Positions 6,579 through 42,229 of a stretch of DNA of 64,000 nt are shown in pieces. The notes beneath the pieces were generated by a model. It was given only the letters and a program-made list of their open reading frames with translations, searched no databases and was not told the DNA's origin. The position numbers and the translations under genes are program-made. Source of the stretch: Butyrivibrio hungatei NK4A153 (lineage in GTDB: Bacteria; Bacillota; Clostridia; Lachnospirales; Lachnospiraceae); the NCBI RefSeq assembly GCF_000424465.1, contig NZ_AUJY01000012.1, positions 148,956 through 212,955 on the forward strand. The letters run 5' to 3'. The number at the start of each line of letters is the position of its first letter. The first letter of the stretch is position 1.

Positions 6579-8129
6579 ATGACTGCAGAAGAGAAAGTAA
6601 TAGTTCTTGATTTCGGCGGACAGTACAATCAGCTTGTAGCTCGTCGTGTCAGGGAATGTAATGTCTATTGTGAGATTTATTCATATCGCACTCCGATAGA
6701 GCAGATAAAGGCGATGGAGCCTAAGGGAATTATTTTGACGGGAGGTCCCAACTCATGTTATGAGGATGGAGCGCCTACATATACCAAGGAATTGTTCGAG
6801 CTTGGCATTCCTGTTTTGGGACTTTGCTACGGAGCACAGCTCATGATGCATGTGCTTGGCGGTAAGGTTGAGAAAGCGCCTGTAAGAGAGTACGGTAAGA
6901 CACAGACATTTATTGACGGATCTAAGGATAAGTTGTTTGCAGGTGTTGAGGATGACACTATCGTATGGATGAGTCACTTCGACTATATCAGCAAAGTTGC
7001 ACCGGGATTTGATATCATTGCTCACACAGCGGATTGTCCCGTAGCTGCAGCGGCTTGTGAAGATAAGAAACTGTACGCTATTCAGTTCCATCCCGAAGTA
7101 TTACATACAGTTAAAGGCAAAGAGATTCTCCATAACTTCGTAAGAAATATCTGCGAGACTGCAGGTACATGGAGAATGGATTCTTTCGTAGAGAATACAA
7201 TTAAAGATATCAAGGCTAAGGTTGGAGACGGCAAGGTGCTTCTTGCTCTTTCAGGTGGTGTTGATTCATCTGTTCTTGCAGCACTCCTTGCTAAAGCAAT
7301 CGGTAAGCAGCTTACATGCGTATTCGTAGATCACGGTCTTCTTCGTAAGAATGAAGGTGATGAGGTTGAAGGCGTATTCGGTGAAAAAGGAAACTTCGAC
7401 ATCAACTTTATCCGTGTGAATGCTGCGGACAGATATTACGCAAAGCTTGCAGGTGTAGAAGAGCCTGAGCGCAAGCGTAAGATCATTGGTGAAGAATTTA
7501 TCCGTGTGTTCGAGGAAGAGGCCAAGAAGATCGGCGCAGTTGACTTCCTTGCACAGGGGACAATATATCCTGACGTTGTAGAATCCGGACTTGGCGGTGA
7601 GTCAGCCGTTATCAAGTCACATCACAATGTAGGAGGACTTCCTGATTTCGTTGATTTTAAGGAAATCATTGAGCCCCTTAAGACATTGTTTAAGGACGAG
7701 GTTCGTAAGGCGGGACTTGAGCTCGGACTTCCCGAGTATCTTGTTTTCCGTCAGCCCTTCCCCGGTCCCGGACTTGGTATCCGTATCATCGGCGAAGTTA
7801 CGGCCGATAAGGTTCGTATCGTTCAGGATGCTGACTACATCTACAGAGAAGAGATCGCGGCAGCCGGCTTATCAAAGCTTCCCGATCAGTACTTCGCAGC
7901 TCTTTCAAACATGCGCTCTGTAGGCGTTATGGGCGATGAGAGAACTTACGATTACGCAATTGTTCTCCGCGCAGTTGAGACGGTAGACTTCATGACAGCC
8001 GAGGCTTCCGAGATTCCTTTCGAAGTTCTCCAGAAAGTCATGAGCAGAATCATCAATGAGGTTAAGGGCGTTAACCGCGTAATGTATGACCTTACTTCTA
8101 AGCCGCCGGGAACAGTGGAATTAGAGTGA
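6579..8129 (+). CDS. guaA: GMP synthase (glutamine-hydrolysing)
   Basis: GuaA converts XMP to GMP using ATP and ammonia from glutamine, the last step of guanine nucleotide synthesis. The N-terminal class I glutamine amidotransferase has nucleophile Cys83 ([10 protein letters not shown]) and the QFHPEV His/Glu pair. The ATP-pyrophosphatase domain has the P-loop LSGGVDSSV. The C-terminal dimerisation domain ends in the canonical [10 protein letters not shown]. The 516-residue length is standard. The ATG follows GGGAGG. It is monocistronic, with its own promoter and a cluster of hairpins immediately downstream. Confidence 0.97.
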
Positions 8130-8186
8130 TAACGAGCCGGGCACGAGACAATTTTAAATGAAAAACACGTAGTGTTTTAGCATAAG

Positions 8187-8230
8187 ATAGGAGGTAGGAC
8201 AAATGCTTGCATTTATGTCCTGCCTCCTAT
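8187..8230. terminator. Strong hairpin terminator downstream of guaA
   Basis: ATAGGAGGTAGGACA at 8187-8201 pairs with TGTCCTGCCTCCTAT at 8216-8230 with a single mismatch, and the stem continues into the loop (AATG/CATT). TTTTATG follows the right arm, so it can act as an intrinsic terminator for guaA. It is the second of five hairpins in this gap. Its left arm contains AGGAGG only as part of the stem. Confidence 0.6.
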
Positions 8231-8287
8231 TTTATGCGTGAAATCCCGAAGGGATTTTCATATAAATTGTCGAAGCATCCGGCGACA

Positions 8288-8337
8288 ACTCCTATAATAG
8301 AAAACGCTGTATTTCAAGCGATTTCTATTATAGGAGT
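8288..8337. repeat. Long near-perfect palindrome
   Basis: ACTCCTATAATAGAAA at 8288-8303 is the exact reverse complement of TTTCTATTATAGGAGT at 8322-8337, a 16-bp perfect stem. After one mismatch CGCT/AGCG adds four more pairs, leaving an 8-nt loop. No T-run follows, so it is not a typical terminator. It could be cruciform-forming DNA, an RNA hairpin or a remnant of a small palindromic element. Confidence 0.75.
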
Positions 8338-8561
8338 AAAGGAGCAAAGCCCGCAACCTCTAGTATTTATAGGGGATGCGGGCTCTTTGGCGCGAGGCTG
8401 AAAACTTGTAGTTGCTTTTTTGTATGTGTTGGAGTATATTCTTATTCAGTTTCAGGATTTCTATAATTTTTTCTTTGAGTGGTTATATTTGTCTTACCAC
8501 AAAAATCCTTGATATGTGATGTGTTGTGATTTTAGTGTTGCGTGCTGAGAAGCCGAGATTG

Positions 8562-8940
8562 AGGGTGCTGTTGGAAAAAGCACATAAGCTTTATATATGG
8601 CGGCGGAAAAGCTATTTTTTAATATTCCGCTGTCGGAAATTAAGTAAATAAAACATCTATGACAGCGGAAAAAGTAGGTTTTTATAATCTCGCTGTTAGA
8701 AAATGCGAATGATGCTTATATACGGCGGCGAAAAAGCAATTTTTTAAAATTTCGATGTTGGAAACTAGGTAGATAAACAATTTATGACAGCGGATAAGCC
8801 AGCTTTCATAATCTCGCTGTTATAAAAAGTAAATGATGATTATCTATTGCAACGAAAATGCCATTTTTCACAATTCCGCTGTCCGAGCATGAAAGGCATG
8901 ATTGACAAGTGGCAGAAAAAAAGAACAACTTAGCTGCATA
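8562..8940. repeat. Degenerate tandem array of about 62-bp hairpin units
   Basis: The left-arm motif (GGCGGCGG or GACAGCGG type) occurs at 8599, 8661, 8724, 8786 and 8849, with a weak copy at 8911, so the steps are 62, 63, 62, 63 and 62. The matching right-arm motif (CGCTGT type) occurs at 8566, 8628, 8691, 8753, 8815 and 8877, again in steps of 62-63. In each unit the two arms can pair as a stem around an A/T-rich loop. Units 1 and 3 resemble each other more than units 2 and 4, and the linkers follow the same alternation, so the array also has a period of about 125 bp. Linkers are similar between units, unlike CRISPR spacers. No gene overlaps it. Confidence 0.75.
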
Positions 8941-8985: not shown

Positions 8986-9018
8986 CAAGTCTTTTTATAT
9001 TTTTAAGGAGGAATCATT

Positions 9019-9852
9019 ACGAAGAAGCAACGAAATTTATTAACGACTAAATATACCAATCTATATTCTGAAGCAAAGCGGAGGTACAACGAGCTGCTTT
9101 TGATCAAGAATTCAAAAGAGGAAGCATTAGAAAAAGCGCCGCCGGGGAAAATACATGTGAGCAGAACTGCGCATGGAGTCCAGTTTTATTTGCGAAGAGA
9201 AAGTTCGGAAAAATCCGGAAAATATATTCATAAATCTGAAATTTCTATGATTAAACAATATCTTCAAAAAGCTTATGACGAAAAGATTAATAAGCTTGTC
9301 ACGGTAGAGGTTCAATGCCTGAAAAAACTCATCGACAAATCGGAAAATACAATAGATAAGATTCAAAAAGCATATTCATCGTTTCCTACTGAAGCGAAAG
9401 AATTAATAACACCTATTGATGTCTCGGACGAGGACTATGTGCAACTCTGGTTAAAAGAGCCATATCAAAGAAAACCTATTCCGGAATATCTTCCTTTTTT
9501 TGAAACTAAACGAAAAGAAAGGGTTCGATCAAAGTCAGAACTCAATATAGCCAATGCACTTGCGGACAAGGGGATTCCATATAAATATGAATGTCCATTA
9601 AAACTAAGTGGCGGGGGAATAATTCATCCTGACTTCACTGTTTTGGATGTCAAAAGAAGAAAAGTATTATATTGGGAACATCGTGGCATGTTAGACGATA
9701 AAGAATATGCGAAGAATTCAGTACAAAGGTTAAAATCTTTGATGAAGGAAGATATTTTTATAGGAGTAAATTTGATAATTACAGAGGAAACATCAATCAG
9801 TCCCTTAGGAACTAATGAGATTGATGCTATAATAAAAAAGTTCTTTCTCTAA
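9019..9852 (+). CDS. PD-(D/E)XK nuclease-like protein with atypical start codon
   Basis: The frame is open from a TAA at 9004 to the stop at 9852. AAGGAGGA (9005-9012) sits at the right distance for a start at 9016-9021, but the codons there are ATT (9016) and ACG (9019). The first usual start codon is TTG at 9102-region position 9100, which would cut off a coding-looking, Lys/Glu/Leu-rich helical N-terminus. I therefore place the start at 9019 and flag it. The C-terminal domain has the order expected for PD-(D/E)XK nucleases: SKSE (Glu), HPDFTV (Asp), then YWEHRG (Glu/His), followed by an LIITEE strand. Stand-alone proteins with a coiled N-terminus and this C-terminal domain are common in Firmicutes; their substrate is unknown to me. 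It is either translated from a non-standard start, N-terminally shortened, or decaying. Confidence 0.65.
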   Translation, partial: TKKQRNLLTTKYTNLYSEAKRRYNELLLIKNSKEEALEKAPPGKIHVSRTAHGVQFYLRRESSEKSGKYIHKSEISMIKQYLQKAYDEKINKLVTVEVQCLKKLIDKSENTIDKIQKAYSSFPTEAKELITPIDVSDEDYVQLWLKEPYQRKPIPEYLPFFETKRKERVRSKSELNIANALADKGIPYKYECPLKLSGGGIIHPDFTVLDVKRRKVLYWEHRGMLDDKEYAKNSVQRLKSLMKEDIFIGVNLIITEETSISPLGTNEIDAIIKKFFL

Positions 9853-41140: not shown

Positions 41141-42229
41141 ATGAAGAAATATATTTCAGTTTTGGTTGCTGCCGTAATGGCAAGCAGCATTATTTGCGCA
41201 TGCGGAAATGGAAATGCTCAGGATGCATCAGCTGCAGGAACATCAGCAGGAAATGCTTCGGAAGCTGTATCTGAGGCAGCAGGCGACAGTGATATAAGCA
41301 TTGTGACAACTATTTTCCCTGAATATGACTGGGTTAAGAATATAGCAGGAGAGAACCCTGCAAATGCAGACATTACAATGCTTCTTGATAGCGGTGTAGA
41401 CCTTCATAGCTATCAGCCCACAGCAGAAGATATTGCTAAGATCTCAAAATGCGACATGTTCATTTATGTTGGCGGAGAGTCTGATGAATGGGTAGATGAT
41501 GCGCTTAAGGAAGCAACCAATAAAGATATGGTAGTTATCAACCTTCTCGACGTACTTGGCGATGACATCAAGGAAGAAGAGATTGTTGAAGGTATGGAGC
41601 ACGAGCACGAACATGAAGAGGGCGAAGAACACGAAGAAGGTGAAGAGCACGAACATGAAGAGGGCGAAGAACACGAAGAAGGTGAAGAAGTAGAATACGA
41701 CGAGCACGTATGGCTCTCACTTAAGAATGCGGCTAAACTTTGCAGTGCCATAAAAGACGGAATGGTTTCTGTTGATGAAGCTAACAAAGACGTTTATGAG
41801 AAGAACGCAAACGACTACATTACAAAGCTTGAAGCTCTTGACGCAGAATATGAGAATGCGGTTAAGGCAGGAAGCAAGAAGACAGTTCTTTTCGCAGACC
41901 GTTTCCCGTTCCGTTACCTTGTTGATGATTACGGACTTGAATATTATGCAGCATTTGTAGGTTGCTCAGCAGAGACTGAAGCAAGCTTTGAAACAATAAC
42001 ATTCCTTTCAAAGAAAGTAGATGAACTCGGACTTGGTTCCATCCTGACCATTGAAGGAAAGGACAAGAAGATTGCCGATACTGTAAAGCAGAACACAGCA
42101 AAGAAGGATCAGAACATCCTTACAATGGATTCTTTGCAGTCAACAACTTCTGATGATGTGGCAAAGGGAGTAACTTATATTTCTGTGATGGAAGGAAATC
42201 TTGAAGTACTTAAGGAAGCGCTTAAATAA
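41141..42229 (+). CDS. znuA: Zinc/manganese ABC transporter substrate-binding lipoprotein (ZnuA/AdcA-like)
   Basis: The 362-residue protein has a signal peptide with lipobox ICAC and a Ser/Ala-rich linker, then the cluster A-1 metal-binding fold: IVTTIFPEYDWVKNIAG, the first ligand in GVDLHSYQPT, a long His/Glu-rich loop (about residues 155-185, repeats of EHEEGEEH) and the second His in DEHVWLSL. The His-rich loop is characteristic of zinc-specific members. It captures metal outside the membrane and hands it to the permease encoded at 42953. AGAGGAA precedes the ATG. Confidence 0.93.
   Translation: MKKYISVLVAAVMASSIICACGNGNAQDASAAGTSAGNASEAVSEAAGDSDISIVTTIFPEYDWVKNIAGENPANADITMLLDSGVDLHSYQPTAEDIAKISKCDMFIYVGGESDEWVDDALKEATNKDMVVINLLDVLGDDIKEEEIVEGMEHEHEHEEGEEHEEGEEHEHEEGEEHEEGEEVEYDEHVWLSLKNAAKLCSAIKDGMVSVDEANKDVYEKNANDYITKLEALDAEYENAVKAGSKKTVLFADRFPFRYLVDDYGLEYYAAFVGCSAETEASFETITFLSKKVDELGLGSILTIEGKDKKIADTVKQNTAKKDQNILTMDSLQSTTSDDVAKGVTYISVMEGNLEVLKEALK

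Follow-up and report, generated by a model that had tools for sequence, protein, structure and literature searches.

We report that a tandem array of hairpin repeats in Butyrivibrio hungatei NK4A153 lies upstream of a gene for a predicted nuclease, and that homologues of this gene recurrently have hairpin arrays beside them; this adjacency of nuclease family and arrays is well supported. Array and gene were analysed in a 64,000-nucleotide stretch of contig NZ_AUJY01000012.1 (positions 148,956 to 212,955; referred to as the window), where both are on the forward strand. Our analysis suggests, with about an even chance of being right, that the two constitute one undescribed module, with a nuclease that would act on the repeats through their hairpin arms and so propagate or maintain them, in the manner of the partnership between repetitive extragenic palindromes (REP) and RAYT enzymes. 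The first-pass annotation is partly supported overall. It had considered a replication or segregation site, a decayed satellite, a structured RNA and a protein-binding array, the last of which we would favour, and did not notice the connection with the gene downstream. Among the matches listed in open papers we found neither this nuclease-array pairing nor an account of such repeats in Butyrivibrio.

The association was scored at 20 loci, comprising every place matched by part of the gene together with the earlier loci, with the homologue confirmed by tblastn. An array was defined as at least three hairpins of 33-39 nt with exact, identical 5-nt arms within 1.2 kb upstream, the permitted span being 900 bp in the locus scan and 400 bp in the background scan. 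Arrays were present upstream of the homologue in 14 of the 20 loci, while the background, 800 kb sampled from genomes G034 and G068, gave 8 arrays, including one that looks like a coding repeat (L186) and one that is nuclease-linked (L156). This sample was used because the windows of a first control held real arrays (6/199 windows with at least three hairpins, one of them nuclease-linked). The approximate Fisher p is 2e-19, and 9e-16 when the loci are merged into 16 clusters, 11 of which are positive. The exact-arm rule misses the window itself and L077, both with a known array and two exact hairpins each; the other misses have tandem repeats according to Tandem Repeats Finder (TRF), located upstream in L132 and L134 and downstream in L130 and L135. 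Four further homologues add an array in G068 and one in G034, together with irregular or decayed hairpins only, as judged by eye, in G018 and at another G034 locus, so that 16 of all 24 loci pass. Across the nuclease-linked arrays hairpin size is near-constant and unit length varies between 53 and 85 bp. At one locus (L128, genome G097) 73-bp hairpin arrays at 843-1397 and 2297-2845 bracket a single nuclease gene. G034 also has four clean arrays with other arm types (65, 74, 74 and 64 bp; L161, L165 and L168) in stretches with no nuclease homologue.

In the window the array consists of five clear hairpins of 35 or 36 nt, located at 8599-8633 (arms GGCGGCGG/CCGCTGT), 8661-8696 (GACAGCG/CGCTGT), 8724-8758 (GGCGGCG/CGATGT), 8786-8820 (GACAGCGG/CGCTGT) and 8848-8882 (GCAACG/CGCTGT), and separated by four 27-nt spacers (8634-8660, 8697-8723, 8759-8785 and 8821-8847). 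The tandem 62/63-bp repeat noticed earlier is real: the top TRF score within the window (359; period 125, 2.5 copies) falls at 8567-8883, and when 8542-8900 is compared with itself, lag 125 gives an identity of 0.521 and lag 62 one of 0.505, above the 0.411 that was the ceiling of 1000 dinucleotide shuffles (best over lags 20-159). Its 125-bp alternation is likewise borne out, since units 1 and 3 are 81% and units 2 and 4 76% identical, compared to 56-62% for the remaining pairs. Five clear and two weak units had been counted; the five stand, as does one decayed hairpin ahead of them (approximately 8541-8572, by eye), whereas a second convincing weak unit was not found. Homology with G032 stops at position 8541, the left edge of the decayed hairpin. 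That the arms are kept while loops and linkers drift is true only in part, mean identity being 0.86 in the right arm, 0.71 in the left arm, 0.70 in the loop and 0.52 in the spacers. Promoter-like pairs of hexamers are present in two window units (ATGACA - 18 - TATAAT at 8659-8688, matching 11/12, and ATGACA - 17 - CATAAT at 8784-8812); such pairs are no commoner than in shuffles. A coding repeat was rejected because 62-bp units break the reading frame, and a 188-aa minus-strand frame over the C6a array of the same genome (see below) is present only where units are 63 bp. Elsewhere in the window, at 41603-41690, there is a perfect 42-bp tandem repeat that is probably coding.

The gene downstream of the array (9016-9852; 278 aa with translation from the ATT at its first position) is preceded by a ribosome-binding-site-like AAGGAGG at 9005-9011. 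Its frame has a good ribosome-binding site, and the homologous N-terminus starts at ATT 9016 instead of an ATG, possibly a rare start or a sequence change; the first listed start is TTG 9100. The family is without name and has at least 1697 relatives, those named among the 120 matches listed being hypothetical proteins. The C-terminal half is predicted to have the restriction endonuclease-like fold of EDxHD / Vsr-like nucleases, and in the top VIA-align matches it resembles the homing endonuclease I-Bth0305I, tied with TnsA and Bax1. Residues E175, D206, H222 and D227 are invariant in 18 sequences and at least 90% conserved in 52; we take E, D, H and D to be the catalytic motif of EDxHD / Vsr-like nucleases. 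On this basis the product is a predicted DNA-cutting enzyme of the EDxHD / PD-(D/E)XK type. Its likeness to I-Bth0305I lies in the predicted fold and the conserved E, D, H and D. The N-terminal half resembles no known protein clearly: structure comparison of residues 1-130 returned long helical coils from various unrelated proteins, which leaves an AP2-like domain, guessed from strand order, unsupported. A PDB sequence search gave nothing better than E 0.05. In Pfam the adjacent protein and seven homologues have no match to Y1_Tnp, a Nop domain or a ToxN family. A weak match to TasH was obtained in the structure comparison. No array pattern was found in viral contigs, and the eight nuclease relatives present there match the C-terminal half only; for the 27% identical homologue in MT839528.1 no array was seen by eye in 1.2 kb upstream.

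BLASTN of the window array against its own genome revealed further arrays stepping by 62/63 bp. A covariance model of the unit (R1) gave 29 matches at E ≤1 in eight places of this genome, counts that are lower bounds as 150 of 2774 first-look candidates were scored. Beyond the window these are six arrays with window-type arms, namely C6a (contig C6, 139.0-139.6 kb; 10 hairpins including a degenerate last one), a second C6 array (145.5 kb; 3 hairpins), two C1 arrays (300.5 and 305.7 kb; 3 hairpins each) and those on C4 (4 hairpins) and C17 (3 hairpins), and a degenerate seventh with mixed arms on C5. Because R1 contained the window units, the model was rebuilt without them (R2); its top three matches on both strands of the 64 kb are array units (hairpin 2, E 1e-4; hairpin 1, 9e-4; hairpin 4, 5e-3), hairpin 3 being absent from the matches. 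In six of the eight own-genome elements the first hairpin (loop like GGTGAATCTATGATTTT) and the last hairpin are each of a special type, the window and C5 copies being too decayed for this scoring. In the genus R1 matches were detected in 6 of 79 genomes, likewise a lower bound since part of the candidates were scored, with arrays in four (G000, G072, G032 and G034) and one weak, chance-like match in each of the other two, and in an order-wide sample under strict filters only the own genome matched (1/295). A pattern scan of genome contigs returned nine stretches, with R1 units in only two, both from Butyrivibrio, and phage and plasmid collections gave no match to the C6a array. As had been stated, no known family applies as far as Rfam goes: neither the window array nor four element loci reach a gathering score, with one sub-threshold chance match. 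The array had also been suspected of being decayed, which is true of the window copy, where identity to the C6a units averages 54%, but not of the family, as cleaner copies are present elsewhere in the genome and genus.

Three further repeat features are recorded here. A separate dispersed repeat of ~148 bp (L045:15212-15359 on C6 and L048:8319-8467 on C4; at least 20 matches in G072) precedes two hairpin arrays at distances of ~160 and ~300 bp. Solo start-type hairpins with flanking A and T runs, resembling bidirectional terminators, occur at L049:9906-9943 and L050:6443-6480. Finally, the degenerate C5 array (L047 6609-6690) and the G014 array (L101 2427-2517) have in common a leader of ~90 bp, at whose end there is a strong GGGGCATCGAA stem; in L101 it scores as a terminator.

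Orthologous arrays differ by whole units: C1a has 3 hairpins in the own genome and 2 in G034, and C6a has 10 compared to 8 in G072, again counting the degenerate last one. Element-free sites in relatives mostly resemble deletion scars. The letters of the arms vary from one nuclease lineage to another and agree inside clades. Units of 53-55 bp correspond to one clade of the nuclease tree (support 0.99) and the GCATCG/ACAGCG group to another (1.0). The agreement of unit length and arms with the tree is partial; arms and periods were assigned to it by hand (two queried, two taken from downstream arrays). In G000, G072 and G068 dispersed arrays have the arms of a nuclease array from their own genome, as they do in G034 for a second nuclease. 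That dispersed arrays should match the local nuclease, as expected, is only partly borne out: no GCATC array was found in 400 kb of G034, no GACACT-arm array in 400 kb of G068, and there is a mismatch in G025. At the site corresponding to C17, G025 has an array with other arms, downstream of which lies a homologue of the lipoprotein gene present at C17.

The present arrays can be compared with several known systems. REP sequences are small palindromes, often in tandem and mostly intergenic, tied to a recognising and cleaving enzyme (PMC8266576), and palindromes beside an enzyme gene and dispersed elsewhere are likewise present here. Membership in REP/RAYT nevertheless fails on enzyme and tag: the enzyme is not a HuH/Y1 transposase, and by inspection no GTAG precedes the arms of the own-genome units, while REP/RAYT hairpins follow a conserved tetranucleotide that is usually GTAG; our hairpins are moreover in direct orientation with far fewer copies per kind. 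Y1 genes occur elsewhere in 7/8 genomes and are absent from G032, which has an element, and a RAYT as mover is thus unsupported. In type III toxin-antitoxin systems (ToxIN, CptIN) a tandem array lies upstream of a nuclease gene with a terminator between, and the repeats follow the protein tree (PMC5086642). The array upstream of the gene is a likeness, yet membership fails on the terminator; the protein here also has a predicted Vsr/TnsA-like fold, and arrays occur without the gene. Type III systems are further marked by ToxN-family proteins and by RNA repeats with pseudoknots, and that family is absent from the Pfam hits for our eight proteins.

The main rival to the module is that the hairpins form a transcribed RNA leader that controls or neutralises the nuclease, by autoregulation or in a type III toxin-antitoxin-like way, with the dispersed arrays leading other genes under the same protein, a reading we consider doubtful. 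It would fit that the last hairpin ends ~20 nt or less from a ribosome-binding-site-like run in L128, L129, L125 and L101, that all eight own-genome arrays are co-oriented with the next plausible gene (frames of at least 100 aa, overlapping antisense frames excluded by hand), and that a Vsr-like fold is known in the RNA-regulating protein FASTKD4 (PMC11879112). A role for structure, suspected from the window alone, is supported in that other species, too, have hairpins with shared arms next to homologues of the downstream gene and that covariation among 38 distinct hairpins is 0.229 (shuffle mean 0.191), a score reached by 0/500 shuffles; double changes occur in 3/6 stem pairs, in two sequences each, and so reflect few events. 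Over 29 distinct stems G.U exceeds A.C by 19 to 3 in the inner six pairs (13 to 3 for the own genome alone) and by 37 to 13 in all eight, while the bias of unpaired columns is opposite (G>A 93, C>T 23), which hints at pairing on the sense strand, although the stem cells are related sequences and not independent. Against an RNA leader, the folds of the eight whole elements beat shuffles about equally on both strands (z-scores of -1.4 to -7.6 for sense and -2.7 to -8.0 for antisense), and the interval separating array from gene was found to hold no rho-independent terminator in the window, L128, L129 or L101, the sole sense-strand site (L101 2489-2517) being at the upstream end of the array.

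That the arrays are instead BOX-like or MITE-like (miniature inverted-repeat transposable element) modular repeats, moved by an unrelated transposase and next to the nuclease through a shared hot spot downstream of guaA, is unlikely. BOX of Streptococcus pneumoniae has a start, a variable core and an end and varies in length at orthologous sites (PMC3049150), and six of our eight arrays likewise have different 5' and 3' modules flanking a core of varying count, and unit number varies between orthologues; the genus is unrelated, however, the elements here occupy eight places, and the accessible text mentions no nuclease partner for BOX. Nor does that for the BrickBuilt MITE of Porphyromonas gingivalis, an intergenic leader-tail element enclosing a minisatellite (PMC4596501), whose unit is 23 nt without spacers. 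MITEs have terminal inverted repeats and a target-site duplication; in our elements the outer arms are inverted yet identical to the inner arms, and no clean empty site was found in relatives. About half of the 24 nuclease loci are downstream of guaA, as a hot spot would predict, but of the 12 loci whose contig has no guaA match 7 still have an array, unit length and arms partly track the nuclease tree, and the element-bearing G032 has no Y1 transposase, the only family looked for. The guaA 3' flank (window 8118-8541) is variable, with a 21-bp inverted repeat at 8288-8337; kilobases are inserted here in G072 and G032, and the nuclease-array modules differ between species. A guide array, with loops or spacers as guides of a system like CRISPR (clustered regularly interspaced short palindromic repeats) or TIGR-Tas (tandem interspaced guide RNA), is very improbable. 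In TIGR-Tas, too, a nuclease gene is accompanied by tandem arrays particular to its locus (PMC12045711); its architecture of two 8-12-nt repeats with 9-nt spacers differs from our units of 53-85 bp, and Pfam detected no Nop domain in the eight proteins. CRISPR spacers are unrelated, while spacers are related within the window and C6a arrays and near-identical or visibly related in G000, G007 and G097 arrays; they are hardly related in the G032 array and one G034 array. Equally remote is a neutral slippage satellite without function, which the degenerate window copy would suit but recurrent adjacency to one gene family and near-constant hairpin size speak against.

We therefore return to the nuclease-hairpin-array module, whose mechanism we infer as follows. 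The nuclease would recognise the hairpin arms, whose letters would set its specificity, and would bind or cut the hairpins as single-stranded DNA, cruciform or RNA. The repeats would owe their spread or upkeep to it, by analogy with the presumed action of RAYT enzymes on REP; dispersed arrays would be non-autonomous copies and the window array an old, partly decayed resident copy. More broadly, and with a chance slightly short of even, a large unnamed EDxHD-type family may be paired with lineage-specific arrays, each enzyme reading its own hairpins and seeding and resizing arrays genome-wide. If true, this would be a REP/RAYT-like partnership of repeat and enzyme built on a different enzyme class, the second class for such partnerships in bacteria. 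Should each family member have a cognate array, the sequence next to its gene would reveal the substrate and a test of function would be immediate. It would also explain the origin of at least some intergenic tandem hairpin repeats in these bacteria.
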